Shown here in pieces: positions 1-25,330 of a stretch of 64,000 nt of DNA (positions are counted from its first letter, which is position 1; each line of letters begins with the position of its first letter). The stretch lies in the NCBI RefSeq assembly GCF_022810305.1, contig NZ_JALGQH010000004.1, forward strand, positions 248,001 to 312,000, given 5' to 3'. Position numbers and translations under genes: made by a program. The notes under the pieces are model-generated. The model had not been told where the DNA came from, did not search any database, and saw only the letters and a list, made by a program, of their open reading frames with translations. This stretch comes from Rhodococcus sp. ARC_M6. Its GTDB lineage: Bacteria; Actinomycetota; Actinomycetes; Mycobacteriales; Mycobacteriaceae.

Positions 1-181
1 CACGCACTGGTCGTCTACATGGCCGAATGTCACTAGCTGGACGGCCGGTGACCCCGATTTTCGATCAAGCACGCCATCGGGCAAGAGTTGGCGACCGATG
101 ACCCTGGTATAGCGCTCTCGCACGGAGAAACCTCGAACGTAGTAGTTGTTCGCGGATTTTCGATCGAGGTGGGAGGTGCGC
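1..181. other. Upstream region of the P-type ATPase gene, no complete gene
   Basis: No complete gene is visible. Frame 1 on the plus strand is open from the window edge to a TAG at 34-36, so the last 11 codons of an upstream gene could be present, but the short tail matches nothing I recognise. The rest should hold the promoter of the ATPase gene; a weak DosR-like box at 18-37 is listed separately. Confidence 0.4.
18..37 (+). promoter_or_regulatory. Weak DosR-like box upstream of the P-type ATPase
   Basis: The sequence CATGGCCGAATGTCACTAGC keeps the GG-C spacing and the GTCA half of the boxes at 5121-5140 and 10160-10179 but has lost the central TTTT. It ends about 145 bases before the ATPase start, further than in the other cases. 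Without the shared gene context it would not be called. Confidence 0.25.
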
Positions 182-5073: not shown

Positions 5074-5589
5074 TCATTCTCCGCGGATCAGGTGTCCAGG
5101 AGTAGAGGCAAAGGGAGGTATTCGATGACAAAAGTCCCTGACGTCGGCCAGGATCGCGGAGACGACAAGGGGGACGGAAGCTGCAACGGTGGGTGACAGT
5201 CCGACACCGTAGCCGGTGTCTTGCGCCTCGACCGTGTAGATCACCAGGTGGCGTGGTTGTCGGCCGAGTGCTGCAGCCAGGGCCAGCGCCTCCATGATGC
5301 CCAGTCCATGTGAGCTGGTGAGTTTTCCGAAGTTTTCTACCGACCGGTCTGTGATTCGGTGGATCTTCCCAGGATGTGCCGTACCGGCGGACGGATTCCG
5401 GACAACAGCATCGACGATGATCACCAACTCCGACCCCGCCCACGTATCCAGTAGTGTCGAAGCCTCGCCGTTCTGGATCACCACGTTCATGCCGGCCGGG
5501 TTCCTGAGTTGTATTGCTTGTGTCACAACGGGTCCGACGCCGTCGTCTTGGCGGAATTCATTCCCGGTTCCGACCACCGTGACAGTCAT
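5074..5589 (-). CDS. [NiFe] hydrogenase maturation protease
   Basis: Endopeptidase that trims the C-terminus of the hydrogenase large subunit after nickel insertion. The start [20 protein letters not shown] carries the GxGN...DDGxG signature of the HybD/HycI family; a later [11 protein letters not shown] contains the conserved histidine region. The 171 residues are of normal length. The ATG at 5589 overlaps the TGA of the large-subunit gene (ATGA), so the two are translationally coupled; an ATG 26 codons upstream would lie inside the large-subunit gene. Its substrate is very probably the HyhL encoded directly upstream, which ends in a short tail after the DPCxxCxxH motif. The last 50 or so bases hold the promoter box of the next operon. 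Confidence 0.9.
5121..5140 (-). promoter_or_regulatory. DosR-like box for the ANTAR-DUF1876-WS/DGAT operon
   Basis: On the minus strand the sequence is CAGGGACTTTTGTCATCGAA, which fits the mycobacterial DosR consensus GGGACTWWAGTCCC over GGGACTTTTGTC. It lies inside the protease gene, about 108 bases before the ANTAR start. A near copy, CAGAGCCTTTTGTCATCGAA, stands before hyhB at 10160-10179, and the next 20 bases of the two promoters are also alike (CTCCCTTTGCCTCTACTCC against ATCCTTCGCCCCTACCCC), so the match is not chance. Confidence 0.7.
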
Positions 5590-6884
5590 CCGCGGTCGAT
5601 TGTCAGGTCGAGAAAATGAGTGGCACAGGAGATGCAGGGGTCGTAGTTCCGGATGGTCCGTTCGCACAGTCCTGTCAGCTCAGTGTCTGTCAGTCTCAGG
5701 TTCGCGGAGAGGGTGCTGCGGAGGTCGTTCTCGATTGCTGCCTGGTTCTGGGAGGTGGGCGGAATGATTGTCGCGCGTAGGATTCGGCCTTCGGAATCGA
5801 GTTGGTAGCGGTGGTACAGCATGCCTCGCGGGGCTTCACTGACGCCGTACCCGGTTGCGGCACGGGGCGAGGTGTCGACGTACGGGCGATCCGGGTGTTG
5901 GTACTCGCGTATCAGGCGTAGCGCCTCGTCCACCGCGAAAACTGTTTCGACGGCACGCACCACAATGCTCTGAAACGGGTTGCGGCACACTGTTCCCAAG
6001 CCCGCCTCGGTGGCAGCTTGACGAGCGGTGTCCGACAGTTCGGCGGAGTGGAGGCTGTACCGCGCCAATGGCCCGGTGAGATAGGCATGACCGTCGAGGT
6101 GCGCGTGCAGCGCGGTCGAATAGGGAACCTGACGTTCCTCGACGTGATCGGAGAATTCCTCGGGTGTGAAAGACAATCCGGATGTGGTTGTCAACATGCC
6201 GTTTTCGATCGCGTAGCGTCCCGGCTGAGCCAGAGCTAGTGCGAGTAGTTCGGAATCTATCTGGGCATCGGGGAATTCGAAGTGAGACACCCACCGCACC
6301 GTCGCGAGAGCGTCGTCGAGCGCCGTGCGCAATTGTTCGGCGAGGGGCTCCAGTTCAGTCGGCGTCGGCGCTCGATAGAAGCCGCCGAGGCGAACGTTGA
6401 CCGGGTGAATCGATCGGCCACCGATCAATTCGAGAATCGCGTTTCCCGCCTTCTTCAAGGCGAGCCCACGTTCGACGTCGGGACGCGCGATTCGGGCGAG
6501 TTCGATGGCATCGGCGGCTCCCAGGAAATCAGGCGCATGCAGCAGGTAGATATGCAGGGTGTGACTGGCGATCCACTCGCCGCAATAGAGGAGTCGTCGC
6601 AGATCGAGAATCGGTTGGGTGAGGTGCGCGCCGCAGGCCTGCTCGATCGCGTTGCAGGCGCTGACTTGATAAGCGACAGGACAGATTCCGCAAATCCTGG
6701 AGGTGATGTCGGGAGGCTCGCGGAAATCGCGGCCCCGGAGAAATGATTCGAAGAACCGTGGGGGTTCGTAGATGTTCAACTCTGCGGCTTCGACGCGGCC
6801 GTGTCGGACAGTGAATGCCAGACGGCCTTCCCCTTCGACACGGGCGAGGGAACCCAGTGTCAGCCGGGTGGTTTCACTGTCCAT
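5586..6884 (-). CDS. hyhL: [NiFe] hydrogenase large subunit, group 3b type
   Basis: Catalytic subunit carrying the NiFe(CN)2CO centre. Both cysteine pairs that hold the metals are present: RICGIC at residues 63-68 (C65, C68) and DPCISC near the end (C417, C420) followed by ATH. The nine residues after H423 (FLDLTIDRG) are the tail removed by the maturation protease. The 432 residues match cytosolic group 3 large subunits and no membrane or Tat signal is seen. It overlaps hyhS by 11 bases and the protease gene by four, in an operon with NAD(P)-binding and iron-sulfur subunits, which indicates a soluble NAD(P)-linked bidirectional enzyme of the M. smegmatis Hyh kind. Assembly needs HypA-F, which are not in this window. 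Confidence 0.95.
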
Positions 6885-7641
6885 CTCGCCTGATCCCGTC
6901 GAACTCGGGGGAGGCGACGTTGAACGTCGAGAAGACCCGCTCGATACCCTCGTCGGTCATCCCGCAGGTTCGCAGCCACCCGGACATTGCAGTCAAATTC
7001 GGATCGGACGACGGGCCGAAGCATCCGTAGCAACCCCGCGAATGTGCGGGACACAGTGCGCCGCAGCCGGAATGGGTAACCGGCCCCAAGCAGGGTGTGC
7101 CGTCAGCGACCATGACGCAGGTGAGACCACGTCGCTTGCATTCGGCGCAGACGCTGGTGTCCGGGATGTTCGGCTTGCGTCCCACCAGGTACGACGAGAT
7201 CACCTCGAGGAGTTGCCGACGATCGATCGGGCAGCCTCGGAGTTCGAAATCGACCGGGACATGGGCGGCAATCGGTGTGGACGTAGCGAGAGTATCGATG
7301 TATTCGGGACTTGCGTAGACCACGGACATGAACTCGGAAATGTCCGCGAAGTTCCGGAGAGCCTGTATCCCACCAGAAGTCGCGCAGGCGCCGATCGTCA
7401 CCAGGTACCGGGAGTTGTCCCGGATCATGTGTATGCGTTCGACATCGGCAGCGGTGGTGATCGACCCCTCGACCAGAGAGAGGTCGTAGGGCCCACTTTC
7501 CACCGCGCTCGACATCTCGAGGAAATGCGAGATGTGAACGGCGTCGGCCAAAGTGAGTAATTCGTCCTCACAGTCGAGCAGCGTCAGCTGACATCCGTCG
7601 CAGGATGCGAACTTCCAGACCGCCAGGGTGAGTGTGCTCAT
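6874..7641 (-). CDS. hyhS: [NiFe] hydrogenase small subunit, group 3b type
   Basis: Iron-sulfur electron-transfer subunit of the hydrogenase. C14 and C17 in [15 protein letters not shown] are the first ligands of the proximal cluster; [10 protein letters not shown] and [12 protein letters not shown] supply further typical motifs. The C-terminal part has many cysteines ([11 protein letters not shown], then [18 protein letters not shown]), consistent with additional 4Fe-4S clusters. There is no twin-arginine leader, so the enzyme is cytoplasmic. The ATG at 7641 shares one base with the TGA of hyhG (TGATG), so a longer upstream frame was rejected. 255 residues. Confidence 0.94.
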
Positions 7642-8465
7642 CACAACTCCTTCACTGCGAGGAGTGGCTCGGCCACGCCGTAGTCGACTACCGGACCGTC
7701 CCGACAGAGTAGAAGTTCGCCGAGTTGGCAATGCCCGCAGAGCCCGGTCCCACACTGCATGTTCCGTTCCAGCGAGACTCGAATATTCTCGCGCTCAACG
7801 CCTTTGCCGAGCATGGTACGAGCTGACATCCGCATCATCAGCTCGGGGCCGCACAGCAGTACCGTCGTGCGTCCGGGCTCGACAACGAGGCGGTTTAGGG
7901 ACTGCGTGACAAAGCCGACATGGCCCGGCCAGTCAGGTTCCGCCACGTCGACGGATAACTCGAGGTCGACCAGGTCTCCCTGACTCCATGCGTCGAGATC
8001 GGGGCGGTACAGGAGATCGGACGGTCGGCGAGCGCCCACGCTGAGGACAACTCGACGAAATCGACCGCAGGACTGTGCCTCCAGGACTGCGGAACGTACT
8101 GCCGCCAAGCCGACGCCTCCCGCGACGACGATCAGATCGTCCTTCGCGGAATCCAGATCCCATCCCTTTCCGAAAGGTCCTCGTACACCGACTACGTCTC
8201 CGACAGAGGCATCGCGCAACGCGCGGCTGACGGCACCGACAGCCCGAACGGTATGGACCACAGTGTGATCGGCGTGAGCCGAGTCTCCACTGATCGAGAG
8301 TGGAATCTCGCCCACTCCCCGCGCATAGACCATCATGAACTGGCCGGAGCGGAACCCGGGAAACCACTGCGCCGGTGCGGCGAGGGTCAGGGTCGAGGTA
8401 TCGCTGTTCTCGTCCCGGCGGGCGACAACCTTGCACGGCGTCGGGACGAGTCGATCACGGAACAT
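7641..8465 (-). CDS. hyhG: Hydrogenase gamma subunit, FAD/NAD(P)-binding oxidoreductase
   Basis: Flavoprotein subunit that passes electrons between the hydrogenase and NAD(P)(H). It has a ferredoxin-reductase layout: an N-terminal FAD barrel ([10 protein letters not shown], then EIPLSISGD), a nucleotide-binding half beginning with [13 protein letters not shown], and a C-terminal 2Fe-2S motif [20 protein letters not shown]. It belongs to the HydG/PyrK-like family and has 274 residues. The ATG at 8465 lies 11 bases inside the preceding cyclic-nucleotide-domain gene. Together with hyhB, hyhS and hyhL it completes the four subunits of a group 3b enzyme. Preference for NADP or NAD is not evident from the sequence. 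Confidence 0.92.
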
Positions 8466-8919
8466 GTTCGCGTGAATAGAGATCGAGCAGGCGTGCGCGC
8501 GTAGCCTGCAATCGATGGAGGAGTGTGTTCGCCAGGGTCGAGTAGATCGCCCGTCCGAGATCCGGATCGTTCTCGGCGACGGACTGCAACATGGTGGCAT
8601 CGACCTCGGCTGCTGTCACGGAAGTGACCGCAGTCGCTGTCCACTGCCACTGTCGAGGTGGGCGGAACCAGGAAACGCCCAGAATCTCACCGACAGAAAG
8701 TGTTTCGACAGTTTCCTCACCGCGTCCGGGAATCCTGGTGGTGAGCGCAATCCTGCCCGACCGAAGAAACCAACACCTGTCAGCGTGTTCGCCTTCGCGG
8801 AACATCACGGTACCGGTCGCGAACTGAACCTCGTGCGAGATGGCCGCGAGTCTATGGCGTTGATCGTCGGCCAGAGCTTCGATTTCTCTCGGACAGTGCT
8901 CGCCGGCGTGATCGTTCAT
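8455..8919 (-). CDS. Stand-alone cyclic-nucleotide-binding-domain protein in the hydrogenase operon
   Basis: A 154-residue protein with the CRP-type beta-roll: IEALADDQRHRLAAISHEV, then GTVMFREGEHADRCWFLRSG, GEILGVSWFRPP and a closing helix. No DNA-binding domain follows, so it is not a CRP/FNR regulator. In the phosphate-binding cassette the usual GE(x)2GE...R-A pattern reads GEILGVSW...QWTATA, so the glutamate and arginine that contact cyclic nucleotide in CRP appear to be replaced. It may sense another ligand or act as a structural or regulatory subunit. It shares one base with hyhB (TGATG) and overlaps hyhG by 11 bases, so it is made together with the enzyme. The domain call is firm, the role is open. 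Confidence 0.75.
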   Translation of the reverse strand: MNDHAGEHCPREIEALADDQRHRLAAISHEVQFATGTVMFREGEHADRCWFLRSGRIALTTRIPGRGEETVETLSVGEILGVSWFRPPRQWQWTATAVTSVTAAEVDATMLQSVAENDPDLGRAIYSTLANTLLHRLQATRARLLDLYSREHVP

Positions 8920-10073
8920 CAGTGACCACCAGCATCGATGTCGGGTTCTACATTCAAGGCACCAGTGAGGCGGGCCGCTTCCGCCGTGATGTCGATACCC
9001 ACCGGACACCAGTCGATGCATCGACCGCAACCGACGCAGCCGGACGAGCCGAATTGGTCGTGCCAGGTGCCCAGCTTGTGAGAAATCCACTGTCGATACC
9101 GGCTCTCGCCACTGACACGCACCGCACCACCGTGCAGTTGTGAGTAGTCCAGGTCGAAACATGACGACCAGTGCTGCCAGCGCTCGACATTGTCACCCGT
9201 GAGATCGGAGACGTCCTCGGTAGTTGTGCAGAAGCACGTCGGGCACACCATCGTGCAGTTTCCGCACGTCAAGCACCGTGATGCGACATCCTCCCAGACA
9301 TCGGCGTCCCGTGCGTCGCGGAGCATGCCGCGAAGATCGACGTCGGGCATTTCGCGGCCCATATGGTGTGCTGCTTCGGCGACAGCGTGGGCTGCCTCGG
9401 CAGTTTCCTCGTCCGTCGCTTGTCTGGGACGGACCAGTGCGAGTATCCGGGATCCTTCCGCGGTGCCCACTCCGGTGACGAATCGGTGGCCGTCGTTGTC
9501 GATTCTTTCGGTCAGACACAGGTCGTACCCGGTTTTTGCCTCCGGGCCGGTATTCATCGACGCACAGAAACACACCCCGCCGGGTTCCGTGCAATTTGCT
9601 GCGATCACGAACAGATTCTCGAAAAGACTTGTCGCGGACTTTCCACCTGCGGAAAGCACTGTCTCGAGTATTCCGATCGCTGCGAGGTCGCATGCACGTA
9701 CGCCGAGAAATGCGTATTTCACCGGTTCGGTCGGCGGTGCGTGGAATGTGCCGTCCTTGGATTCGCTCCAGAGTTGTTGACGCGACGGGTGGAGGTACTG
9801 CTTCCAGGATTGCGGCCCGGCGGAGTGACCGAAGACGGCAGAATCTGCTCTCTTACTCAGTCGATACCGGCCCGGGCCGGTATCGACACCCCATCCCGCC
9901 GGCAATTGGTCACCGGACTCGAGAGTGTCCAGGACGATCGCGCTGTCGCGGACAGTCGGGCCGATGACGCGATAGCCCTCGGCACACAACACCGAGATCA
10001 GATTGTCGAGCCCGGCTCGGTCTATGACAACGTGATCGTGCGTGAGGTCGGTGGGTAATCCGGCACCGGTCAT
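8919..10073 (-). CDS. hyhB: Hydrogenase beta subunit, 4Fe-4S protein
   Basis: First gene of the hydrogenase operon; carries electrons within the complex. Two ferredoxin-like clusters are visible in the C-terminal third: [16 protein letters not shown] and [16 protein letters not shown]. The N-terminal part belongs to the HydB/4Fe-4S dicluster family seen in sulfhydrogenases and group 3b hydrogenases. The ATG at 10073 is preceded by a perfect AGGAGG four bases away; the 42 codons upstream in the same frame cover the promoter and are not translated in my reading. A DosR-like box sits 87-106 bases upstream. The gene stands divergent from the GNAT-pfkB-hydrolase operon. 384 residues. Confidence 0.9.
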
Positions 10074-10159
10074 GGATCCTCCTTGCGGGCGACATCCGTA
10101 TTCCTCCACGATCCAGCTTCGCGCATGAGCTGCCGGCGGGGTAGGGGCGAAGGATGATA

Positions 10160-10179
10160 TTCGATGACAAAAGGCTCTG
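10160..10179 (-). promoter_or_regulatory. DosR-like box between hyhB and the GNAT operon
   Basis: Minus strand CAGAGCCTTTTGTCATCGAA, sharing 18 of 20 positions with the box at 5121-5140. It is placed 87 bases before the hyhB ATG and 66 bases before the divergent GNAT ATG, so it could serve both directions. The following ATATCATCCTTCGCCCCTA region resembles the other promoter as well. Confidence 0.7.
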
Positions 10180-10244
10180 CCCACTACCGGCGATGCCACG
10201 GTTCAATCGGGAGGTATCCCTCCAGCCGAATCAGGTGATGATCG

Positions 10245-10745
10245 ATGGCCGTGACGGGCAGCGGAATCGGCACGACAACAGTTCGGTGCCTCGGAGCAAG
10301 AGACGCCGATGCGGTGCAGCGGCTGCATGCGCGCCTCGACCAGCACGATTCGTACATGCGGTGGTTCGGGCCGCAGCCGAAACAGCTCACCGCCTTTTCC
10401 GGCCAGTTATGCGAGTGCAACGATCGGCGATGCGCTCTGGGCGCGTTCATCGGCGAAGAATTGGTGGGTGTCGGAAGCTTCGCCGTGTTGGACGGGGTTT
10501 CACCGACCACCGTGGAGTTCGCCCTCGTAGTAGCGCAAGACGAGCGGTTGCACGGAATCGGTACCTTGATCTTGGATCGGCTCGAGGCTCAGGCTTACCG
10601 ATTCGGTGCGCGATGTATGGTGGCCGAGGTGATGGGGGAGAACGCACCTATGCTTCAGGTCATTCGTGAACGAGGCTGGGCACATTCACTCCGTCGTGAC
10701 GGATCCACACTTCACCTCGAGGTGAAACTACATGTGGCAGAATAG
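10245..10745 (+). CDS. GNAT acetyltransferase, Pat-like catalytic domain
   Basis: Acetyl-CoA-dependent N-acetyltransferase of the GNAT fold, 166 residues. The segment HDSYMRWFGPQPKQL near residue 35 resembles the S-x-x-Y-x-R-F-F region of Pat-type protein acetyltransferases, FALVVAQDERLHGIGTLIL is the acetyl-CoA-binding beta4-alpha3 stretch (usually Q/RxxGxG/A), and ENAPMLQVIRERGW is the closing motif. In mycobacterial Pat the GNAT domain is fused behind a cyclic-nucleotide-binding domain; here that type of domain is a separate gene in the divergent hydrogenase operon. AGGTGA six bases before the ATG supports the start. The gene overlaps pfkB by 14 bases. The substrate is unknown. Confidence 0.75.
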   Translation: MAVTGSGIGTTTVRCLGARDADAVQRLHARLDQHDSYMRWFGPQPKQLTAFSGQLCECNDRRCALGAFIGEELVGVGSFAVLDGVSPTTVEFALVVAQDERLHGIGTLILDRLEAQAYRFGARCMVAEVMGENAPMLQVIRERGWAHSLRRDGSTLHLEVKLHVAE

Positions 10746-11697
10746 CTCTCGTGTTGTGACGGTGACGATGAATCCGGCGCTCGATATCTCGACCAGTGCG
10801 CCCGCGGTGCGTGCGACAGACAAGATGCGCTGCACTGCTCCCCGTCGTGACCCTGGAGGCGGCGGATTGAACGTCGCCCGAGTTCTGCATTCGCTCGGGG
10901 AAGACGCGACAGCGGTCTTTCCATCGGGTGGACACTGCGGACGGGCGATAGCGGATCTGCTCAGTGGCGAACAGGTGCGATTTTCTGCCGAGCCGATTTC
11001 CGGCTCTACCCGCGAGAGTTTTACCGTCGACGACATCTCGACGGGTCAGCAATACCGTTTTGTACTGCCGGGGCCGACGCTGACGGATGCCGAGGTGGAT
11101 TCGTGTCTCGCACGGGTGAGCGAATTCGCAACAGGATCCCGCTTTATCGTCGTGAGTGGCAGCCTGCCACCAGGAGTCGGTTGCGATTTCTGTCAGCGGC
11201 TCGCCGACCTGCTCACCGACACCGGGGCGCAACTGGTTGTGGACACCTCCGGCGGTGCGCTGCGCGCGTTGCAGCGAGGCGTCTACCTCGTCAAACCGAG
11301 TATCCGAGAGCTCCGTGAATGGGTTGACCGGCCTCTCGAGACGAAGTCGGAACAAGCGGCTGCGGCGAGAAGCATCGTCGAACGCGGCGTGTCCGAAGTG
11401 GTGGTCGTCTCGCTCGGTGCCGACGGCGCACTAGTGGTCACGGCTGACATCTGCGAATACATCCCATCGGTGGATATTGCGTCGATCAGTGGGGTCGGCG
11501 CCGGTGACAGCATGGTTGCGGGCATCGTGTATTCGCTCGTGCACAACCGTTCGCTGGTGGAAGCGGTGCAGTTCGGTATTGCGGCGGGGGCTGCAATGCT
11601 GCAGACGCCGGGTACTGCGGCATGTAAACCTGCCGACGTCGAGATGTACTACGCACGGATACAAGAACTGCCTGACCTGGGAGTATTCCCGTCCTGA
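10732..11697 (+). CDS. pfkB: PfkB-family sugar (fructose phosphate) kinase
   Basis: ATP-dependent kinase of the ribokinase/PfkB family, 321 residues, closest in pattern to 1-phosphofructokinase/6-phosphofructokinase isozyme 2. Seen are the start TVTMNPALDIS, the glycine-rich DPGGGGLNVARVL, and the catalytic GVGAGDSMVAG with the aspartate base, all at usual positions. It overlaps the GNAT gene. M. tuberculosis pfkB (Rv2029c) lies in the DosR regulon, and the company of PEP synthase and hydrogenase here suggests carbon flow under low oxygen. Whether fructose-6-phosphate, fructose-1-phosphate or tagatose-6-phosphate is the substrate is not decidable from sequence. Confidence 0.87.
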   Translation: MWQNSSRVVTVTMNPALDISTSAPAVRATDKMRCTAPRRDPGGGGLNVARVLHSLGEDATAVFPSGGHCGRAIADLLSGEQVRFSAEPISGSTRESFTVDDISTGQQYRFVLPGPTLTDAEVDSCLARVSEFATGSRFIVVSGSLPPGVGCDFCQRLADLLTDTGAQLVVDTSGGALRALQRGVYLVKPSIRELREWVDRPLETKSEQAAAARSIVERGVSEVVVVSLGADGALVVTADICEYIPSVDIASISGVGAGDSMVAGIVYSLVHNRSLVEAVQFGIAAGAAMLQTPGTAACKPADVEMYYARIQELPDLGVFPS

Positions 11698-12697: not shown

Positions 12698-14995
12698 TTA
12701 CCCGGCGCGAGCCTGACCGAGAAGAATTCGTCGCTCGGCTACCGCAATTGCGCGCCGAGTCGTATCGGCCGCATCGGGAGTGACGGAGACAGACGTGATC
12801 CCTTGTCTCACAAGGTGTTCCGCCAGTGCAGGATCCGTGGATACCGCTTGGCCGCAGAGTGAGGTAGTCATACCGGCAGCGGTGGCACGTTCGATGATCG
12901 TGTCGATGGCGTCGAGGACCGCAGGATCCATGGTGTCGAAGAGGTCCTTGCAGATCTCCGAATCTCGGTCTACGCCGAGAACCAATTGCGTGAGGTCATT
13001 GGTGCCGATGGATACTCCGTCGATTCCCATTGCCGCGTAACGGGGAATCCAATACGCCACCGAAGGTATCTCGGCCATGACCCATCGCAGCATCCGATGA
13101 TCTGACCCGAGGGGATGGGCATCCAACTGTGCCAGGCACTGGGACAGTTCCCAGCCGGTCCGAACGAACGGAATCATGAGATGCACGTTGGGGTAGCGCT
13201 TTCGGGTTTCGGCGATGACATCGAGATCGAGTGCAAACAATTCAGGTTCCCGGATGTAGCGGAAACATCCGCGGTAGCCGATCATCGGATTGTCTTCGTG
13301 TGGTTCGACTTCGCCTCCTTCGAGGTGCGCAAATTCGTTGGTACGTAGGTCAATTGCGCGATAAATAACGGGCCGTGAGCCGAACGCGGCCGCGATGCGC
13401 GAGAGAGCCGAAGACATTTCGGTTACGTACTTCTCATGCAGGCCACGCGCAATCATCGTGTGGGGATGTAGGCCTTCGAGGGCGTCCATGATCAGGAACT
13501 CCGCCCGAAGTAGACCGACACCGTCGACCTCCGTGGCGGCCACTCTTTCTGCAGCTTCCGGTGTTGCCAGGTTGACGTAGACGGATGTTGCCGTGGTCGG
13601 TCCGCGGGTCGACGCCGCCGAAGGTGCAGTTGGGGTCGTCGGTGCGCTCGTAGTGACGGCAGTCGCCGCATCCGCTTCCCTGACCGTTCCCGCGGTGCCG
13701 TCGACAGTGATCAGCATTCCGTCGACAAGATCTGTTGTTGCCGTGCGCGTTCCGACGATAACGGGTCGACCGAGCTCGCGGCCGACGATGGCGGCGTGGC
13801 ACGTGATGCCGCCGCCGTCGGTGACAATTGCGGCAGCGCGCCGGAGAACTGGCAGCCAGTCCGGTCGGGTCATCGGTGCCACGAGAATTTCACCGTCAAC
13901 GAGATTGCGGCCGTCCGCTACTGAACGTAGGACCCGTACCCTGCCGGTGGCTTTTCCCGGTCCGGCGCCCAATCCGTGCGCCAGGATCTGTGCACTCGAA
14001 CCATCTGATTGCGAGTCAGGCGGTTCTGTTTCTGCGTGCTGTCCGAGCGTAGTGATCGGGCGTGTTTGGACAAGCCACAGTTGCTCTCCGCTGTAGGCGA
14101 ATTCGAGGTCCTGAGGCCGCTGATAGTGCTCTTCTACCGCTGCAGCGAGTACCGCGAGTCGGTGGATCTGATCTTCGGTCAGGATCTGTTGTTCGCGTTG
14201 CAGCAGAGGGATTTCCGACGATTGCTCAGTACCGTCGGACAGTGTGATCGCGAAGGATTGTGAACCGATATGCACATCGAGTACCGACAAATCCGGTTTC
14301 GACACCACGTATGTGTCTGGTTCCACCTGTCCTCCCACGACCACTTCACCCAGGCCGGTCGCAGCTTCGATCACGATGCGATCCCTCGCGCCGGTGCGGG
14401 GGTCGGCCGTGAACACGACACCCGACTGGTTGGCCTCGACCATGCATTGGACAACAACTGCCAACGACGGTTCTTCGTGTACCCCTTGGAGACTGCGGTA
14501 TGTCAACGCCCGATCCGACCACAGCGATGCCCAGCACTTTCGGACCGCATCGATCAGATTCTCGTCTCCGGAGACGTTTGTGAAGCTCTCGTGAATGCCG
14601 GCATACGACGTGTCGGCCGCGTCTTCGGCCGGCGCGGACGAACGGACGGCGACGCGTGTGGTCGAAGGCCCCAGTTCACGATAAGCGTCGATAATCTCCG
14701 CGCGCATCGCGTCGGGGACGACGGCGGCGCAGACTGCGTCCTCGGTGCTGTCGGTGCGTGGCAGAGGTCCCTTTTTCAGCGTTTCTCGAAGTCCGGAAGC
14801 ATCCATTGCATCGAGATAGCCCGCAGTGTTGATCACGAATGCCGGCGGAACCGGGAATTTCGACCGAATCAACTCGCCGAGGTTGGCGGCTTTGCCGCCG
14901 ATAGTGGGTGCATCGTCGGGTCCGACGGCATCGATCGGTACAACCCACCGGTATGCGGCGACTGGATGCGTGGCGGTTGAACGACTCGTCTTCAT
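12698..14995 (-). CDS. ppsA: Phosphoenolpyruvate synthase
   Basis: Converts pyruvate, ATP and water to PEP, AMP and phosphate. Three parts are visible: an N-terminal ATP-grasp/PPDK domain beginning IGGKAANLGELI with RSSAPAEDAADTSYAG, a phosphohistidine domain with GGGITCHAAIVGRELGRPV carrying the swivelling histidine, and a C-terminal TIM barrel ending in SLCGQAVSTDPALAEHLV with the catalytic cysteine. A Thr/Ala/Pro-rich linker of about 30 residues joins the second and third parts. 765 residues is normal. The gene is divergent from the CBS-BON gene, with a weak DosR-like box between. In the M. smegmatis dormancy island a PEP synthase gene also lies near the CBS gene (as I recall it). Confidence 0.9.
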   Translation of the reverse strand: MKTSRSTATHPVAAYRWVVPIDAVGPDDAPTIGGKAANLGELIRSKFPVPPAFVINTAGYLDAMDASGLRETLKKGPLPRTDSTEDAVCAAVVPDAMRAEIIDAYRELGPSTTRVAVRSSAPAEDAADTSYAGIHESFTNVSGDENLIDAVRKCWASLWSDRALTYRSLQGVHEEPSLAVVVQCMVEANQSGVVFTADPRTGARDRIVIEAATGLGEVVVGGQVEPDTYVVSKPDLSVLDVHIGSQSFAITLSDGTEQSSEIPLLQREQQILTEDQIHRLAVLAAAVEEHYQRPQDLEFAYSGEQLWLVQTRPITTLGQHAETEPPDSQSDGSSAQILAHGLGAGPGKATGRVRVLRSVADGRNLVDGEILVAPMTRPDWLPVLRRAAAIVTDGGGITCHAAIVGRELGRPVIVGTRTATTDLVDGMLITVDGTAGTVREADAATAVTTSAPTTPTAPSAASTRGPTTATSVYVNLATPEAAERVAATEVDGVGLLRAEFLIMDALEGLHPHTMIARGLHEKYVTEMSSALSRIAAAFGSRPVIYRAIDLRTNEFAHLEGGEVEPHEDNPMIGYRGCFRYIREPELFALDLDVIAETRKRYPNVHLMIPFVRTGWELSQCLAQLDAHPLGSDHRMLRWVMAEIPSVAYWIPRYAAMGIDGVSIGTNDLTQLVLGVDRDSEICKDLFDTMDPAVLDAIDTIIERATAAGMTTSLCGQAVSTDPALAEHLVRQGITSVSVTPDAADTTRRAIAVAERRILLGQARAG

Positions 14996-15224: not shown

Positions 15225-15803
15225 ATGCTTGCACGACACATCATGAGTAGTCCTGTGACGACGATCGATCAGGCGACCGGTACCGACGAATGTCTACTGG
15301 TGATTTCACGGTCGGGATTTTCGGTGCTTCCCGTGATCGACGAACAGAAGCACCTTGTCGGGATCGTTTCGGAGGGTGACCTTCTCCGGAGTAGGTTTCA
15401 AGACTTGTCGCAGAATGATCAGCCCGCTTCCGGCGTCGACTCGGTCGCGGATGTCATGACCAAGCCTGTGATTGCGATGACTGCAGATGCGGAGATCAAC
15501 GCTGTCGCCTCCGCGATGCTCCGCTCCGGCTTGCGCGCGGTGCCGATCGTCCATGAGGGGGATGTCATCGGAATCGTGACGCGCCAGGACCTGATCGGGG
15601 TCTTGGCGCTGGACCCTGATCGCATTGTCGACGAAGTACGGCATCGACTTGACCTCTACGGTGGGCCGGATCTGTGGGCGGTGGAGTTTGCCGATGGAAC
15701 ACTCACTATCAGCGGTGTGTCCGAGGATGACCCACAGCGAGGAGTTGTCATTGCACTTGCATCGTCGGTGCCGGGAGTGGACGAGATACGGCTACAGCCC
15801 TGA
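15225..15803 (+). CDS. CBS-pair and BON domain protein (hypoxic response protein type)
   Basis: 192 residues: two CBS domains (about 1-60 and 75-130: FSVLPVIDEQKHLVGIVSEG and LRAVPIVHEGDVIGIVTRQD) followed by a short BON domain (LTISGVSEDDPQRGVVIALA). CBS pairs bind adenosyl compounds and BON domains bind phospholipid or other ligands. A double-CBS protein, Hrp1 (Rv2626c), is a prominent DosR-regulon member; the BON addition makes this one different. AAAGGAGAATCGGC precedes the ATG. The WS/DGAT gene follows after 31 bases, so the two probably form an operon. The ligand is unknown. Confidence 0.85.
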   Translation: MLARHIMSSPVTTIDQATGTDECLLVISRSGFSVLPVIDEQKHLVGIVSEGDLLRSRFQDLSQNDQPASGVDSVADVMTKPVIAMTADAEINAVASAMLRSGLRAVPIVHEGDVIGIVTRQDLIGVLALDPDRIVDEVRHRLDLYGGPDLWAVEFADGTLTISGVSEDDPQRGVVIALASSVPGVDEIRLQP

Positions 15804-15834
15804 GGGTGGGTGGCGACAAGGGAATCGAGTGGTG

Positions 15835-17232
15835 ATGAGCGCAGTGGACGTGCGATCGATGACGCAGACGGATCTGATGTCGTGGCGGATGGAGGAGGAT
15901 CCGATCCTTCGCTCGACAATCGTCTCAATTGTGCTGTTGGACAAGGTTCCTGACCAAGGTCGATTGGTCGATGTCATGCACCGCGCCATCGACGCGGTAC
16001 CGATGTTCAAGTGTCGAGCCGTTGCGAGTTCGTTTCCTTGGACTCCGCCTCGATGGGTGGACGATCGCGACTTCGACCTCAGTTGGCACCTGCGTCGGAT
16101 GACACTGCCGGAGCCAGGTACTTGGAACGAGGTTCTGGAATTCGCTCGCATCACCGGGATGGCCGCCTTCGACAAGGATCGTCCGCTCTGGGAGTTCACA
16201 GTGCTCGACGGACTGGCCGACGGCGCCGCGGCGCTGGTGGTCAAGGTCCATCACTCTCTGACCGACGGTGTCGGTGGAATGCAACTGACACGTGAAATCA
16301 CTGACGAGACAAGGGAAGGCATGTCAAGAGTCGGCACATCGAGTCTGTCCGCGCCGACCGCGGTGACGCCTATCGATCGTCTGACGGGCGCGAATGCTGT
16401 GGCACACTCGGTTGGGTCTGCCGCGGGGTCTGCTGTCCGAGCGGGTGCGCGTACATTGCGCCATCCTGTCGATACCGTCCGCGGCGCCGCCCGAATCCTG
16501 GGTTCGACATCACGTATGGTGCGACCGGCGACAACCACATTGTCGCCGGTGATGACTGAGCGTAGTGCGCGTCGTAGTTTCGGCGTGCTCGAACTTCCGG
16601 TTGCGGCCCTTGCCGCTGCCGCGACAGCTACACAGTGCTCGATCAACGATGCGTTCTTGGCTGCTGTTCTTCTCGGAATGGCTGAGTACCATCGACGCTG
16701 CGGTGCTGTACCGCCGGAGCTGATGGTGACCTTGCCGATAAGTTTGCGCACCGATCGAGACCCGTTGGGCGGCAACCGCATTTCGTTGGCAAGATTTGCG
16801 CTACCGCTCGATATCTCGGATCCGGATCCGCTGATGCACCGGGTCCACGCCACCGTAGAGAGCTGGCGGAATGAACCTGCAATTCCGCTTTCGCCCCACC
16901 TGGCCGCGATGCTGAATCTGCTGCCGGTTGCGGTGACGGGCAACATGCTCAAGCACATGGATTTTGTCGCCTCGGACGTGGTCGGTTCCACGACTCCGCT
17001 GTATCTTGCCGGCGCGGAGATCACCCGGCAGTGGGCGTTCAGTCCTACTCTCGGTTCAGCATTCAACGTGACGTTGATGTCGTACACCACGCATGTGTGT
17101 GTCGGAATCAACGCCGATGCGGGTGCAGTTCCCGATCTGCCGGCGCTGATCGCATCGGTTTCCGATGGATTCCGTGCAGTGTTGGCCGTAGGTCCGCCGG
17201 GAATCGACGTCGCAGTGACGGTGGCATGCTGA
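15835..17232 (+). CDS. Wax ester synthase / diacylglycerol acyltransferase (WS/DGAT), second copy
   Basis: Second acyl-CoA acyltransferase of the WS/DGAT family in this window, about 465 residues. The catalytic HHSLTDG is at residues 139-145. The C-terminal half keeps family blocks such as SLRTDRDPLGGNRIS and LYLAGAEI. Three possible starts lie in a row, GTG 15829, GTG 15832 and ATG 15835; AAGGGA at 15818-15823 is best spaced for the GTGs, so the true start may be two codons upstream. It lies 31 bases behind the CBS-BON gene. The protein is only distantly similar to the first copy by eye, so the two probably differ in substrate. It meets the ABC permease gene tail to tail with four bases between. 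Confidence 0.9.
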   Translation: MSAVDVRSMTQTDLMSWRMEEDPILRSTIVSIVLLDKVPDQGRLVDVMHRAIDAVPMFKCRAVASSFPWTPPRWVDDRDFDLSWHLRRMTLPEPGTWNEVLEFARITGMAAFDKDRPLWEFTVLDGLADGAAALVVKVHHSLTDGVGGMQLTREITDETREGMSRVGTSSLSAPTAVTPIDRLTGANAVAHSVGSAAGSAVRAGARTLRHPVDTVRGAARILGSTSRMVRPATTTLSPVMTERSARRSFGVLELPVAALAAAATATQCSINDAFLAAVLLGMAEYHRRCGAVPPELMVTLPISLRTDRDPLGGNRISLARFALPLDISDPDPLMHRVHATVESWRNEPAIPLSPHLAAMLNLLPVAVTGNMLKHMDFVASDVVGSTTPLYLAGAEITRQWAFSPTLGSAFNVTLMSYTTHVCVGINADAGAVPDLPALIASVSDGFRAVLAVGPPGIDVAVTVAC

Positions 17233-19930: not shown

Positions 19931-21208
19931 TCACAGTCTGCGGGCGATCGATTCCGCCTGGGCGCCCAATTTGGCCAACCTCAGGTCGGCAAACGGAGTG
20001 AGGGCACCGCCCATTCGGTTGGTCACGAATGCCACCGACAAGCAGGTCTCAGGGTCCGCGAATGCCCCGGATCCACCAAGCCCGTAGTGTCCGAAGGCCT
20101 GCAGCGACGAATTTCGGCTGGCAACAAAGGCCGAGTGATAGCCGAGTCGCCAGTTCATGCGGATTCCGAGCACATAGTCGCGCGCCGTGGTCTGTACCTC
20201 GCCCATCTGTTCCAGGGTCTCTTCACTCAGGAATCTGTTTCCTCCCACCATTCCCTGGTTGGCAAGTGCTGCGTACATTCGGGCAAGGGCGCGAGCACTG
20301 AAAACGCCGTTCCAGCCGGGCATGACGTAATCGTGGATCGAGGGATTGCGGACCAACTGGTCGAACCCCGTCGGCATGCCGGCATCCGCGATATTCCTGA
20401 GCGCAGGCAACCGGGTCAACGCGAAGGAAGCGGTGTCCCACGGAACCTTGAACTGATTGATGCGGGGGAACAACTTTGCGATGCGATGGCGTTCGTCCTC
20501 GGGCACCTGGAACCAGAATTCCGGAATTCCGAGAGGATCCGCGATCTCTGTACGGACCAGGTCGGTAAACGATGAACCAGTTGCGCGAGTTGTCAGTTCG
20601 GCGACCAGCGAACCGAATGTGACTGCGTGATAACCGGGTGTGGTGAGGCGGCGACGGTCCGGTGTGGCCAATGCGAGGGCGCCGACGATGCTGTCGTGAT
20701 CGAGCAGCGCCAATCGGCCCGGAACCAGGCCGCGTACACGATGCAACCCGGCCTGGTGGGTCAACAGTTGCCGCACCGTCACAGTTTCCTTGCCTGCACT
20801 TGCGAACTCCGGCCAATACTCGGCGACCGGTGTGTCGTAATCGATCAGCCCACGTTCCACGACACGGTGCAAAACCGTACTGGCAACACCCTTTCCGGTG
20901 GAGAAGGACACAGACACGGTGTCGGGTAGCCAGCGGGTATCCCGAGTCGACCACCCTGCCCAGATATCGACGACGGGCTCCCCGCCGAGATAGACCGCCA
21001 ATGCTCCACCGCCGCTGGAAGGGCGTTCGAAGAGGCGAAAGAATTGCCCGGCCAGCTGCCCGAACCGCGGGTCGACCAGCATGACACGTGGCGTGGAAAC
21101 AGTGGGAATCACGGCTGAAGCGTCGCGACGGACCGTCGAAACATCGCGACGGACCGTCGGTGGAAGGTCGGTCGGAAGCAACCCCTCGAACTCGGGGAGA
21201 TTCGTCAT
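19931..21208 (-). CDS. Serine hydrolase of the beta-lactamase / EstB esterase family
   Basis: 425-residue penicillin-binding-protein-like hydrolase. The SxxK motif is in SFSTGKG, the second motif in the YHAVTFG stretch where class C enzymes have YxN, and a late GHYGLGGSGAFADPE supplies the HxG-type third motif. No signal peptide; cytosolic esterase or amidohydrolase is more likely than beta-lactam hydrolysis. The N-terminus contains a short in-frame repeat (VRRDVST VRRDASA) from a 20-base DNA duplication. The ATG at 21208 has GAGAAG eight bases upstream; a GTG three codons earlier is possible. It stands alone between the ABC operon and the SHOCT gene. Confidence 0.82.
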   Translation of the reverse strand: MTNLPEFEGLLPTDLPPTVRRDVSTVRRDASAVIPTVSTPRVMLVDPRFGQLAGQFFRLFERPSSGGGALAVYLGGEPVVDIWAGWSTRDTRWLPDTVSVSFSTGKGVASTVLHRVVERGLIDYDTPVAEYWPEFASAGKETVTVRQLLTHQAGLHRVRGLVPGRLALLDHDSIVGALALATPDRRRLTTPGYHAVTFGSLVAELTTRATGSSFTDLVRTEIADPLGIPEFWFQVPEDERHRIAKLFPRINQFKVPWDTASFALTRLPALRNIADAGMPTGFDQLVRNPSIHDYVMPGWNGVFSARALARMYAALANQGMVGGNRFLSEETLEQMGEVQTTARDYVLGIRMNWRLGYHSAFVASRNSSLQAFGHYGLGGSGAFADPETCLSVAFVTNRMGGALTPFADLRLAKLGAQAESIARRL

Positions 21209-21497
21209 AATGTGCACTTCTCATTCAACCGGGGGTCGCTGATTACCACCCTGTTACTTCTCTGAAACACTCCGGAAACCGGCAGGATTCCACGGTTGGG
21301 GCTATTGGGGCAGATGGAGCAGAAGTGCCCTAAGACAAGGACTTGCGGCAGGACGGATGACACTTTTTTGCTCGTGGAAGTCGAGCAGAAAGACCCTGTG
21401 GATGTGTCGGGGAACAGCGCATCCTGAGGGAAGACGCGTGAGACGCCCCTTCGAGGGAGTGCGCACGGCCGCATGGAGAACTTGGAGGCCCGTTGTG

Positions 21498-21788: not shown

Positions 21789-21836
21789 CTAATTCGCCGC
21801 GAATGAACTAATTCCCAGAGTGAGGAATCGAGTGAA

Positions 21837-22940
21837 ATGGTCAAACGCTGGCTGGTGACGGACGCGGAATGCGACGACACACGAGAGCCGTATCGAACGC
21901 GGGTGGCCGGGGCAGGTCGGCATTTTCCCGTCACACGACTCACGACCGAGGATTTGATGGCAACAACACGCCACGAAACTCATGTCGACCTCGAACGACT
22001 GACTGGAATCCACGAGCGTCGGGTCAGTGTGGGCGACGAGGATTCCTACACACTTGGGATTGCAGCCGCGCAGGATGCATTGCGACGGTCGGGTTGTGCC
22101 GCCGAGTCGATAAACGTGGTGATCAGCTGCAGCATCACCAAGTTTCGTGGCGGCCTCACTCAGTGGCTCGAGCCGACAATGAGTAGTGGCGTTGCGCAGG
22201 CTCTCGGGGCCGACAAGGCTATGACTTTCGATTTGTCGAATGCTTGCGCTGGGATGCTCACCGGTGTGATGGTGGCCAACAACTGGATTCGTCAGGGCTT
22301 GATCGAGCGGGCGCTGGTCGTCAGCGGTGAGTACATCTCGCAGCTCGGTCAGAATGCCGCGAAGCATATTCACAACATCATGAGCAAAGAGTTAGCTTCC
22401 CTCACCTTGGGCGATGCGGGCGCGGCGCTCGTCCTCGAACGTGCGCCCGCCGGTGCGGCGGGGATCCGGCTCGCGGGATTTACGACTGTCGCCGACTACA
22501 GCCGGTTGTGCCTGGCTTACCCGAAGGGCAATGCGCCGGGTGCTCGCATGTTCACCAATTCGCGAGCCATTCAGAAGGCCGCTATCGCCGACACTCCGTT
22601 GCTGTTGCACGAGGTACTCGACACGCTCGGGCTGTCGATCCACGACATTGACCATGTGATCACCCATCAAACTTCGGCGCGGGCAATCAAGAAGGGTATG
22701 GCGCAGATGGAGGCGTCGTTCGGCGATAGTCCGCGGCACGACGCGGTCATAACCGTCGATCGATACGGGAACACGGCTTCGACAACCCACACGGTGGCGT
22801 TGGTCGAAGAACTCGAGGCAGGCCATATCAAGCCGGGAGAGACCGTTGCGTTGATCTCTTTGGCCTCCGGGTTGGAGATCGGGGTAGTCCTGGTGGAAAT
22901 CGACGAAGAACTGGTGGCGCGCTATGGGAACGATCATTGA
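21837..22940 (+). CDS. 3-oxoacyl-ACP synthase III-like protein with intact triad
   Basis: Thiolase-fold condensing enzyme of the FabH/KAS III type, 367 residues. The three catalytic residues are in place: C137 in DLSNACAGML, H277 in THQTSARAI and N312 in YGNTAST. The N-terminal 50 residues, with a LERLTGIHERR block, also follow the family. It is not the housekeeping FabH, because it stands outside the FAS-II block and is paired with a second, degenerate KAS-III gene that starts 17 bases before its stop. This two-subunit arrangement recalls PqsB/PqsC-like heterodimers. A diiron oxygenase gene follows. The product of the operon is unknown. GAGGAA nine bases before the ATG supports the start. 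Confidence 0.82.
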   Translation: MVKRWLVTDAECDDTREPYRTRVAGAGRHFPVTRLTTEDLMATTRHETHVDLERLTGIHERRVSVGDEDSYTLGIAAAQDALRRSGCAAESINVVISCSITKFRGGLTQWLEPTMSSGVAQALGADKAMTFDLSNACAGMLTGVMVANNWIRQGLIERALVVSGEYISQLGQNAAKHIHNIMSKELASLTLGDAGAALVLERAPAGAAGIRLAGFTTVADYSRLCLAYPKGNAPGARMFTNSRAIQKAAIADTPLLLHEVLDTLGLSIHDIDHVITHQTSARAIKKGMAQMEASFGDSPRHDAVITVDRYGNTASTTHTVALVEELEAGHIKPGETVALISLASGLEIGVVLVEIDEELVARYGNDH

Positions 22941-23847
22941 GCAGCTGTACGTCACTCGGGCTGGATGGCTGAGTCGGCACAGTGCACTTCACCTTGCGGT
23001 AGCGGCGGCGAAGTCTTGCCTCGAACAGGCCGGATGCCGCCCGGACGACTTGGATCTGCTCCTGAACGCCGGCCTGTATCGTGACCGCAACCTTGGTGAG
23101 CCGGCCCTCGCTGCGCTGATCCAAGACGACATCGGGGCGCATCCGGAGGACCCGCACACCGGCGAGCACGGCACGTTCTCCTTCGATATTGCGAACGGTA
23201 CCTGTGGTGTCCTGACCGCACTGCAGATTGTCGACGGATTCCTTCGCTCTCACGTGATCGAACGTGCCCTCGTCGTTGCCAGTGATGCGGACCCGGGACA
23301 TCGGCTAAGTGAGCGGTTTCCGTTTTCGGCAGTCGGGGGAGCCGCGTTGTGTCGTTGGACCGACGATGAGTACGGGCTCGGCCCAGTGCAGTGGCTGAAT
23401 AATCTCGACGGTGGTGATTCTTTCCGGGCAACGGTCAGCCAAGCCGACAACCGAAACATTCTGCGTTTCAACGAGTCCAATTCACTCGACGACGACTACG
23501 CCGCAGCAGGCTACGAAGCAGTAGCTGCCTGTCTGAAGCAGGCGGAACTCGATCTGGCGGCGGTCGATTCCATCGTGGCCGCTCCCGCCTGCCCAGGCTT
23601 TCGTTCGGCATTGGCAACAAAGCTGGGGATACCAAGCTCAGGCGTCACCGTTGCCGAAGACGAGCACATACATACCGCTGCACTGATCGCAGGTTTGGAG
23701 AGGGACGAACCCCGACGGTCTGCGGGAACACGGATAATTCTTGTAACAGTGGGAGCCGGCGTGACAGCCGGTGCCGCTCTGTACAACGTCCCGCCGAACC
23801 ACGAAGCGCACACAGCGACAGGGCTTGACGGTGCCGGGTCGAACTAA
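22924..23847 (+). CDS. Degenerate KAS III-like partner protein
   Basis: 307 residues, thiolase fold, overlapping the preceding ketosynthase gene by 17 bases. The nucleophile position is kept (C94 in FDIANGTCGVL), but the regions where histidine and asparagine should stand read APACPGFRSAL and EDEHIHTAAL, so the His and Asn of the triad are lost. It therefore probably cannot condense by itself and may be a structural or regulatory subunit of a heterodimer with the upstream protein, or carry out an acyl transfer or hydrolysis using Cys alone. It is clearly coding: the overlap and the conserved glycine pattern VTVGAGVTAGAAL argue against decay. Confidence 0.75.
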   Translation: MGTIIEQLYVTRAGWLSRHSALHLAVAAAKSCLEQAGCRPDDLDLLLNAGLYRDRNLGEPALAALIQDDIGAHPEDPHTGEHGTFSFDIANGTCGVLTALQIVDGFLRSHVIERALVVASDADPGHRLSERFPFSAVGGAALCRWTDDEYGLGPVQWLNNLDGGDSFRATVSQADNRNILRFNESNSLDDDYAAAGYEAVAACLKQAELDLAAVDSIVAAPACPGFRSALATKLGIPSSGVTVAEDEHIHTAALIAGLERDEPRRSAGTRIILVTVGAGVTAGAALYNVPPNHEAHTATGLDGAGSN

Positions 23848-23903
23848 GTTGACTACAGGGGTTGCATGAGACGCGGTGTCACACTAAGTTTAGGCGCAAT
23901 CGA

Positions 23904-23927
23904 GTTCGTTGATCGCGATCGACGAAC
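23904..23927. promoter_or_regulatory. 24-base near-perfect palindrome upstream of the diiron oxygenase gene
   Basis: Left arm GTTCGTTGATCG (23904-23915) and right arm CGATCGACGAAC (23916-23927) are reverse complements except for one position. There is no loop, so it looks like a dimeric repressor site (TetR or similar) rather than a terminator. It lies 21 bases before the oxygenase ATG and behind the two KAS genes. No regulator gene is adjacent in the window. Confidence 0.6.
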
Positions 23928-23948
23928 AGGCGCCTTGAGGAGACACCG

Positions 23949-24941
23949 ATGGTTCGGTCAACGTCTATTGAAATGGATCAGCCTTACCGCGAGTTGCTCG
24001 CAACACTCTCCGATGGTTCCGTTCACAAGCGGTTCGATCCCTACCTCGATATTGACTGGGATTCAACGGAATTCGCGATAGACCCGAATGATCCGCGCTG
24101 GGTGCTCTCGGCGGTGTCGGATCCACTCGGCGCCACCCGTTGGTATCAGGATCAACCGCTGGAACGTCGTATCGCGATGGGAAAGTGGCGCCAGGCGAAT
24201 GTAACCAAGGTGGGCTCGGCATTCGAGAGCATCCTGATCCGCGGGATGCTGCAGTACATCATGGCACTACCCAACCAATCTCCCGAGTTTCGGTACTGCC
24301 TTCACGAGATGACCGAAGAGTGCAATCACATCCAGATGTTCCAGGAATTCGTGAATCGGGTGGACGTCGACGTGCCGGGGATGCGTCCGTTATTCCGGCG
24401 TTTGTCACCGTTTGTGGGGTTGCTTGGCGCCAAGTTCCCGGTCATCTTCTTTATTGGCATCCTTGCCGGTGAAGAGCCTATCGACCATTTTCAGAAAGAC
24501 CTTATCCGTGAAGGTAAGGATACGGTGCCGGTCATGCTGCGCACCATGGAGATTCACATTGCCGAAGAGGCGCGGCACATCTCCTTTGCTCACGATTTTC
24601 TGCGCCAGCGTGTTCCAGCGCTGAGTCCGTTCGGTCGAGCGATGACGTCCGTTGCCTTTCCCGGTGCCATGCGGTGGCTGTCCGGCGAAATAATGTCACC
24701 GCCAAAGGAATTCGCGAAGAAGTTCGACATTCCCGAGTCGGTGATAAGAGAAGCGTTCTGGAGCAGTCCGCAGTCGCGTCGAATTCTGGGTAACTACTTT
24801 GGTGAAATGCGCACGCTGGCAGACGAACTCGGATTGATGAATCCTGTGTCGAGGCGGGCGTGGAGAAAGCTGGGTATTGCCGGCGACATGGCCCGGTATC
24901 GCGGCGAACCGAGGCGCTCGGAGAAGGTGCGAGTCGCCTAG
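23949..24941 (+). CDS. AurF-like non-haem diiron oxygenase
   Basis: 330-residue helical protein with the diiron ligand pattern of the AurF (p-aminobenzoate N-oxygenase) family: E93, EECNH at 123-127, E175/E176, E201 and EEARH at 206-210. AurF-type enzymes oxidise amines to nitro compounds or hydroxylate; other family members act on acyl chains, so the reaction here is open. GAGGAG stands seven or eight bases before the ATG. It follows the KAS III-like pair by 101 bases, with a palindrome between, and is followed by a strong hairpin. The three genes together look like a small biosynthetic unit: a condensing heterodimer plus an oxygenase. Confidence 0.83.
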   Translation: MVRSTSIEMDQPYRELLATLSDGSVHKRFDPYLDIDWDSTEFAIDPNDPRWVLSAVSDPLGATRWYQDQPLERRIAMGKWRQANVTKVGSAFESILIRGMLQYIMALPNQSPEFRYCLHEMTEECNHIQMFQEFVNRVDVDVPGMRPLFRRLSPFVGLLGAKFPVIFFIGILAGEEPIDHFQKDLIREGKDTVPVMLRTMEIHIAEEARHISFAHDFLRQRVPALSPFGRAMTSVAFPGAMRWLSGEIMSPPKEFAKKFDIPESVIREAFWSSPQSRRILGNYFGEMRTLADELGLMNPVSRRAWRKLGIAGDMARYRGEPRRSEKVRVA

Positions 24942-25017
24942 GGGGACAGGTGGCGGCGCTGCAACTACGGAGATCGTGTCGCAAGCGCTGCTTGTGATGT
25001 GTCCCTTGAGCAGTCAA

Positions 25018-25037
25018 CCTGGCCCTTCAGGGCCAGG
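25018..25037 (+). terminator. Hairpin after the diiron oxygenase gene
   Basis: A perfect nine-base stem CCTGGCCCT / AGGGCCAGG with a two-base loop, about 77 bases behind the stop codon; flanking TCAAC and GTTGA extend it. There is no T-run, as is common in this phylum. Confidence 0.6.
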
Positions 25038-25151
25038 TAGTTGATAGTGATTCACCCCCGTCGCGGCCCTCGTGTTGATATCTTTCGCGTGACGCTATGC
25101 GCCACCGCACAAGGTTCGCCGATAAGGAGAACCTATACGAAGGAGCTTTCG

Positions 25152-25277: not shown

Positions 25278-25330
25278 TCGGGACGGTGCAGTAGGTCCCG
25301 GTCCAGCAAGTCCTGACCCCGGATTCACCG

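Follow-up and report, generated by a model that had tools for sequence, protein, structure and literature searches.

OleA depends on a required glutamate, followed by a proline, which is contributed to it by the other subunit (PMC7064751). In LstAB, which condenses two acyl-coenzyme A (acyl-CoA) molecules without decarboxylation, the Cys-His-Asn residues are located in LstA, and Glu60 of LstB is essential (PMC12141560). A DosR-type cluster of Mycobacterium smegmatis that is induced by low oxygen comprises the hydrogenase Hyd3, a P-type ATPase, and phosphoenolpyruvate (PEP) synthase (PMC2799521), and wax ester synthesis has been reported to be necessary for entry into dormancy (PMC3522743). Here we analyze a stretch of 64,000 nucleotides of Rhodococcus sp. 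ARC_M6 (contig NZ_JALGQH010000004.1, positions 248,001 to 312,000), referred to as the window, with two overlapping genes of the β-ketoacyl-acyl carrier protein synthase III (KAS III) type, termed KAS1 and KAS2, and a third gene coding for an AurF-family diiron protein. An earlier note on this DNA had read the three genes as one biosynthetic unit. The KAS1-KAS2 pair is a real conserved unit, which in Rhodococcus and in roughly one in three Mycobacterium species is located in a DosR/DosS-type dormancy island; the AurF gene is an independent chance neighbor of the pair.

A conserved pair of KAS III-like genes

Rhodococcus, Hoyosella, Antrihabitans, and many species of Mycobacterium and Mycolicibacterium contain relatives of KAS1-KAS2, with identities to the window proteins of 71–98% for KAS1 and 52–97% for KAS2. 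The pair is present in 68 of 198 genomes of the genus Mycobacterium, and among 396 genomes sampled across the phylum, orthologues (E<1e-100) were confined to the window's own family. All three open reading frames (ORFs) described in the earlier note are present (Table 1), and KAS2 indeed starts 17 bases inside KAS1. Since almost every Rhodococcus and Mycobacterium locus shows this overlap, with genes in the relatives called by simple ORF choices, it is not due to chance.

KAS1 contains Cys137, His277, and Asn312, as previously noted. KAS2 retains Cys94 and has lost the other two catalytic sites, the histidine site being replaced by Ala/Pro (APACP) and the asparagine site by His250. Both proteins additionally contain an OleA-type Glu-Pro motif (E112-P113 in KAS1, E59-P60 in KAS2), which had been overlooked and which aligns with the region of the catalytic glutamate of OleA. 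Residues E112, P113, C137, H277, and N312 of KAS1 are invariant in 108 loci, and E59, P60, and C94 of KAS2 in 109 loci (E59-P60 in 109/109), with H250 conserved in 108; some of these loci represent the same genome entered twice. The strict pairing, the constant overlap, the distribution of catalytic residues, which are lost in one protein and kept in the other, and the precedent of LstAB support the earlier proposal that the two products form a heterodimer.

KAS1 matches the Pfam family ACP_syn_III_C (3.9e-17), and the match of KAS2 to the same family is weak and below the cut-off (2.5e-4). An AlphaFold2 model of KAS2 predicts a KAS III fold, with a predicted template modeling score (pTM) of 0.87 and fold-match Z scores of up to 32. 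In a phylogenetic tree, KAS1 proteins of the window type group with the KAS1 proteins of related pairs which we take to be of the Nlt (nocardiolactone) type, with support values of 95/97; the KAS2 side of the tree is weakly supported. Judging from the grouping of the KAS1 proteins, the division into two subunits appears to predate the divergence of dormancy-type and Nlt-type pairs.

Some Mycobacterium genomes code for proteins of about 1,780 amino acids which combine condensation, adenylation, and carrier domains of non-ribosomal peptide synthetases with tandem KAS III domains (L226:6839-12202 and L227:7270-12609, both on the minus strand); their last KAS III domain resembles KAS2. The distant actinobacterial genome G700 harbors a KAS1-KAS2 pair which is directly followed by a gene of the sulfotransferase family (L217:7687-11025).

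Location in a dormancy island

On contig C96 (229 kb) of the window genome, the 41 kb that precede the pair comprise universal stress protein (USP) genes and genes coding for a trehalose-phosphatase/GH65-like protein, two Acg-family proteins, a DosR-like regulator, a DosS/T-like kinase, and an Rv2004c-like protein; of these, the USP, Acg, DosR-like, DosS/T-like, and Rv2004c-like genes are located directly upstream of the window. The stretch up to and including KAS2 also contains genes of a P-type ATPase, a wax ester synthase/diacylglycerol acyltransferase (WS/DGAT), a NiFe hydrogenase, PfkB, PEP synthase, a second WS/DGAT, an ATP-binding cassette (ABC) exporter, a LipL-like esterase, and the KAS pair. 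This context is not confined to the window: at least one dormancy-type gene occurs in 61, and at least two in 55, of 67 long named loci. A frequent order in mycobacteria is USP, Rv2004c-like, Acg, KAS1, KAS2, PEP synthase, WS/DGAT, and the gene directly upstream of the pair codes for an Acg-family flavin mononucleotide (FMN) protein in 28 of 73 cases, many of them mycobacterial. In ten out of ten genomes, a DosR-like regulator (72–79% identity in Rhodococcus, 79–81% in Mycobacterium) is encoded on the same contig as the pair, at a distance of 3.5–44 kb. The genes that a review lists, in the passages considered, as members of the M. tuberculosis DosR regulon do not include a KAS III pair (PMC5309233), and a search of open-licence full texts for a KAS III gene in a DosR regulon yielded nothing relevant.

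A variant box matrix was derived from the KAS1 upstream regions of the relatives. Because it was trained on KAS1 sites alone, the other gene classes provide an independent test; matches were found for 44% of the Acg, 31% of the WS/DGAT, 28% of the USP, and 28% of the PEP synthase genes, as compared to 8% of other genes. A total of 87 dormancy-type genes carry the variant box, versus a mean of 7 and a maximum of 28 with permuted matrices. The box precedes KAS1 in 24 of 74 relatives; it resembles, but is not identical to, what we take to be the published DosR palindrome. Two other motifs were discarded. The sequence TTSGGGACTWWAGTCCCSAA, presumably the classical DosR consensus, scored near shuffled sequences before KAS1 in most loci, and GGGACNNNNGTCCC is not enriched in the window (33 matches versus 56 expected).

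Link to WS/DGAT acyltransferases

Of the 80 loci that exceed 18 kb, 52 contain a WS/DGAT gene, even though the whole genomes, of 5–8 Mb, carry no more than 9–24 copies. In two cases, namely L075 (genome G028) and L173 (a Nocardiaceae metagenome-assembled genome), KAS2 and a complete WS/DGAT form a single in-frame fusion, and in several mycobacteria (L113, L114, L119) a WS/DGAT gene directly follows KAS2. This linkage suggests a destination for the product of the pair, for which it is the best clue.

Proposed reaction and alternative readings

The KAS1-KAS2 pair divides its residues between the subunits as LstAB does, and we consider it rather probable that it represents a dormancy-associated heterodimer of the LstAB type which condenses two acyl chains and feeds esterification by WS/DGAT. 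In this mechanism, deduced from the residues, KAS1 and KAS2 would form an obligate heterodimer. An acyl-thioester would be held on Cys137 of KAS1, with His277 and Asn312, while Glu59 of KAS2 would enter the KAS1 active site and act as the base which deprotonates the second acyl chain, resulting in a non-decarboxylative (head-to-head) Claisen condensation of two acyl-CoAs. The β-keto product, or a ketone or alcohol derived from it, would then be esterified by WS/DGAT into a neutral lipid. Under low-oxygen conditions, the pair probably serves as a sink for carbon or electrons. Somewhat doubtful, to our mind, is the more far-reaching possibility of an undescribed branch of the dormancy response of mycobacteria and rhodococci, in which a KAS III heterodimer would join two acyl chains head to head and pass its product to a fused or neighboring WS/DGAT, yielding low-oxygen lipids of a new class, for storage or for the envelope, in many non-tuberculous mycobacteria.

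Several observations weigh against an acyl-acyl condensing pair that supplies WS/DGAT. The loci come from related genomes, so that the counts are not independent. The adjacency of WS/DGAT is variable, with none present in about a third of the loci. In hidden Markov model searches, KAS1 is equally near to the FabH and OleA-type families and below both cut-offs (131 bits versus a cut-off of 292 for the FabH profile TIGR00747, 150 bits versus 285 for the OleA profile NF006720). KAS2 may have a catalytic function in its own right, because its Cys94 is kept throughout. Finally, KAS1 of the window and of its erythropolis-type clade was not found to be preceded by a DosR-type box, for which reason its control may differ in this clade.

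A decarboxylative condensation of the FabH/PqsBC kind, using an acyl-CoA and a malonyl donor or special nucleophile, with KAS2 in a structural role, would agree with the full Cys-His-Asn triad of KAS1, as used by decarboxylative KAS III enzymes, with Bacillus subtilis FabH1 as the best PDB match of KAS1, and with the occurrence of PqsBC and PqsD chains among the near folds for the KAS2 model. The similarity to PqsB/PqsC is a generic KAS III fold match with about 16% identity. The OleA-type Glu-Pro, invariant in both proteins of the pair, is, however, not present in the FabH1 segment aligned to KAS1. We regard this chemistry as unlikely. PqsBC, to which the pair had been likened in the earlier note, is not the functionally closest model; LstAB, which acts on two acyl-CoAs, fits the retained glutamate better.

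It is likewise improbable, and to a similar degree, that the pair makes an envelope or signaling lipid unrelated to WS/DGAT, with common regulation as the sole reason for the shared neighborhood. The frequent upstream neighbor being an Acg-family protein rather than a WS/DGAT, and the ABC exporter nearby in the window clade, would be in line with such a role, but the two KAS2-WS/DGAT fusions and the WS/DGAT genes directly downstream in other species argue for a closer connection.

Related pairs with about 34% identity are located beside AMP-ligase and 3-β-hydroxysteroid dehydrogenase (3-β-HSD) genes in Nocardia-like genomes and some Rhodococcus, raising the possibility that the window pair starts a nocardiolactone- or lipstatin-like β-lactone pathway, with OleC and OleD supplied from elsewhere in the genome. 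However, no OleC-type ligase was found at E≤1e-40 in nine genomes containing only the dormancy-type pair, the window genome included, and the one tested pair-bearing genome that does have such a ligase also contains an Nlt-type cluster; no OleC-type ligase was seen beside the pair. A β-lactone pathway in trans, which we consider very unlikely, was rejected on account of the missing ligase in the dormancy-type-only genomes tested.

The functions of mycobacterial dormancy islands have already been searched for intensively. If the proposed WS/DGAT-linked condensing heterodimer is real, its connection by gene fusion predicts a specific, unreported lipid, and its occurrence in 68 of the 198 Mycobacterium genomes would link hypoxia to lipid chemistry in a way that is restricted to certain species and open to direct testing.

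The AurF gene is a chance neighbor

The third gene clearly belongs to the AurF family (PF11583, 338 bits versus a cut-off of 29.6). Its invariant or nearly invariant ligand-type residues are E93, E124, H127, E176, H203, E207, and H210, which we take to correspond to the diiron ligands of AurF. The ligand pattern given in the earlier note was thus mostly correct, except that E201 is not invariant and that H203, the seventh conserved residue, had been omitted. Searches with the AurF protein revealed no clear PDB sequence match and weak fold scores.

The gene adjoins the KAS pair in the same direction in the window and in Rhodococcus sp. IEGM 1379. The three-gene order was found in these two genomes, which comes close to the occurrence in a single strain that the earlier note had named as refuting its proposal. 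AurF is located beside the pair in 1 of 80 named loci. Among 28 genomes of the genus Rhodococcus, 12 contain the pair, 10 an AurF orthologue (≥80% identity), and 5 both, indicating no association (Fisher p=0.70). Where both are present, the spacing is about 0.1 kb in one genome and 0.4 kb in another; a third genome, a very close relative, has them 26 kb apart, and elsewhere they are separated by 426 and 717 kb or located on different contigs. In those members of the erythropolis-type clade that lack the pair at this site, AurF precedes a recO-uppS-glyS block.

A sequence block of the form GGGGTTGC...TG(A/G)GACGCGGTGTC...GGAGACACCGATG upstream of AurF is found in similar form in genomes without a neighboring KAS pair. 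In the window, it is entirely contained in the 101-base gap after KAS2. Lying wholly in this gap and being kept without the pair, the block assigns AurF to the flank, and AurF probably has its own promoter. The reading of KAS1, KAS2, and AurF as one pathway to an oxidized or N-oxygenated acyl compound, for which the adjacent, co-directional genes of the two strains speak, was therefore rejected as highly implausible in view of linkage, co-occurrence, and the upstream block. A search of the same body of literature for a pathway of an AurF-like protein and KAS enzymes yielded nothing relevant. The case illustrates that a chance neighbor can suggest a false pathway.

The nearly perfect 24-bp inverted repeat GTTCGTTGATCGCGATCGACGAAC (window 23904-23927) is located right before AurF. 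Because different palindromes occupy the same place in other AurF orthologues, it is suggested to be a putative operator. In the close relative G003, a KAS2-like fragment (49% over 47 amino acids, one stop; L064:6962-7105) lies near AurF, 24 kb from an intact pair. In several genera, AurF paralogues with 52–60% identity have as their neighbor a fusion of ferredoxin and pyridine-nucleotide reductase (L092:8617-10413), the fusion protein being a likely electron donor for the AurF family.

Other features of the window

As previously noted, no acyl carrier protein, thioesterase, or polyketide synthase is encoded by the immediate neighbors of the three genes. A short SHOCT-domain protein is encoded immediately upstream of KAS1 (window 21357-21788), and in neighboring strains the matching position is occupied by a small ORF rich in Met and His. 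A promoter/terminator scan of positions 21700-25400 revealed nothing above chance, and PADLOC gave no match indicating a role in anti-phage defence.

Table 1. Positions of the KAS pair, the AurF gene, and selected island genes in the window
Feature	Position	Strand	Remarks
KAS1, predicted catalytic KAS III subunit, 367 aa	21837..22940	+	ORF; C137/H277/N312 and OleA-type E112-P113
KAS2, predicted KAS III-like partner subunit, 307 aa	22924..23847	+	ORF; E59-P60, C94, H250; KAS III fold predicted
KAS1/KAS2 overlap, 17 bases	22924..22940	+	kept across Rhodococcus and Mycobacterium
AurF-family diiron protein, 330 aa	23949..24941	+	real gene; judged outside the KAS system
Conserved upstream region of AurF	23858..23948	+	GGGGTTGC block; TGAGACGCGGTGTCACA at 23867-23883; 24-bp inverted repeat at 23904-23927
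WS/DGAT acyltransferase, candidate functional partner	15625..17232	+	true start probably later
Second WS/DGAT	2956..4365	-	TIGR02946 above cut-off
Cation P-type ATPase of island	146..2938	+	
NiFe hydrogenase genes (alpha, delta, gamma, beta) of island	5586..10199	-	
PfkB-type sugar kinase of island	10732..11697	+	
PEP synthase of island	12698..14995	-	
LipL-like serine esterase, divergent neighbor	19931..21217	-	retained in erythropolis-type clade

Comparison with known systems

The mycobacterial DosR regulon and the M. smegmatis hypoxia island msmeg_3927-3955 resemble the island in their DosR-type genes, DevR/S, hydrogenase (Hyd3), P-type ATPase, and PEP synthase, which are induced at low oxygen (PMC2799521), but the regulon blocks and genes named in the passages considered do not include a KAS III pair (PMC5309233). 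With the N-oxygenases AurF and CmlI, which appear among its weak structure matches, the AurF-family protein of the window has the Pfam assignment and the seven ligand-type residues in common; it differs from them in its weak fold scores, and it stands outside the KAS unit.

PqsBC of Pseudomonas aeruginosa is likewise a heteromeric KAS III enzyme matching in fold, but at low identity, and it belongs to another product pathway and context. OleA of Xanthomonas campestris shares the Glu-Pro and the Cys-His-Asn residues with KAS1, for which non-decarboxylative Claisen chemistry would be expected; in contrast to the window pair, OleA is a homodimer accompanied by oleBCD, and KAS1 does not reach the cut-off of the OleA profile. 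Nlt-type pairs have the same two-subunit layout, the same Glu-Pro, and the same His250 of KAS2, and their KAS1 proteins fall into one clade with that of the window, with identities of 32–36% for KAS1 and 29–34% for KAS2. They differ in being located beside AMP-ligase and 3-β-HSD genes in β-lactone-like clusters.

Unlike LstA-LstB of the lipstatin producer Streptomyces toxytricini, the window pair lacks OleC/OleD partner genes for β-lactone formation, and it is located in a dormancy island, with linkage and fusion to WS/DGAT. The likeness of the two systems, drawn from layout and residues rather than from a direct sequence comparison, lies in two adjacent KAS III-like genes, in a Cys-His-Asn triad confined to one subunit, and in a glutamate of the partner subunit at the position of OleA-117, namely the essential E60 of LstB and, by sequence, E59 of KAS2.

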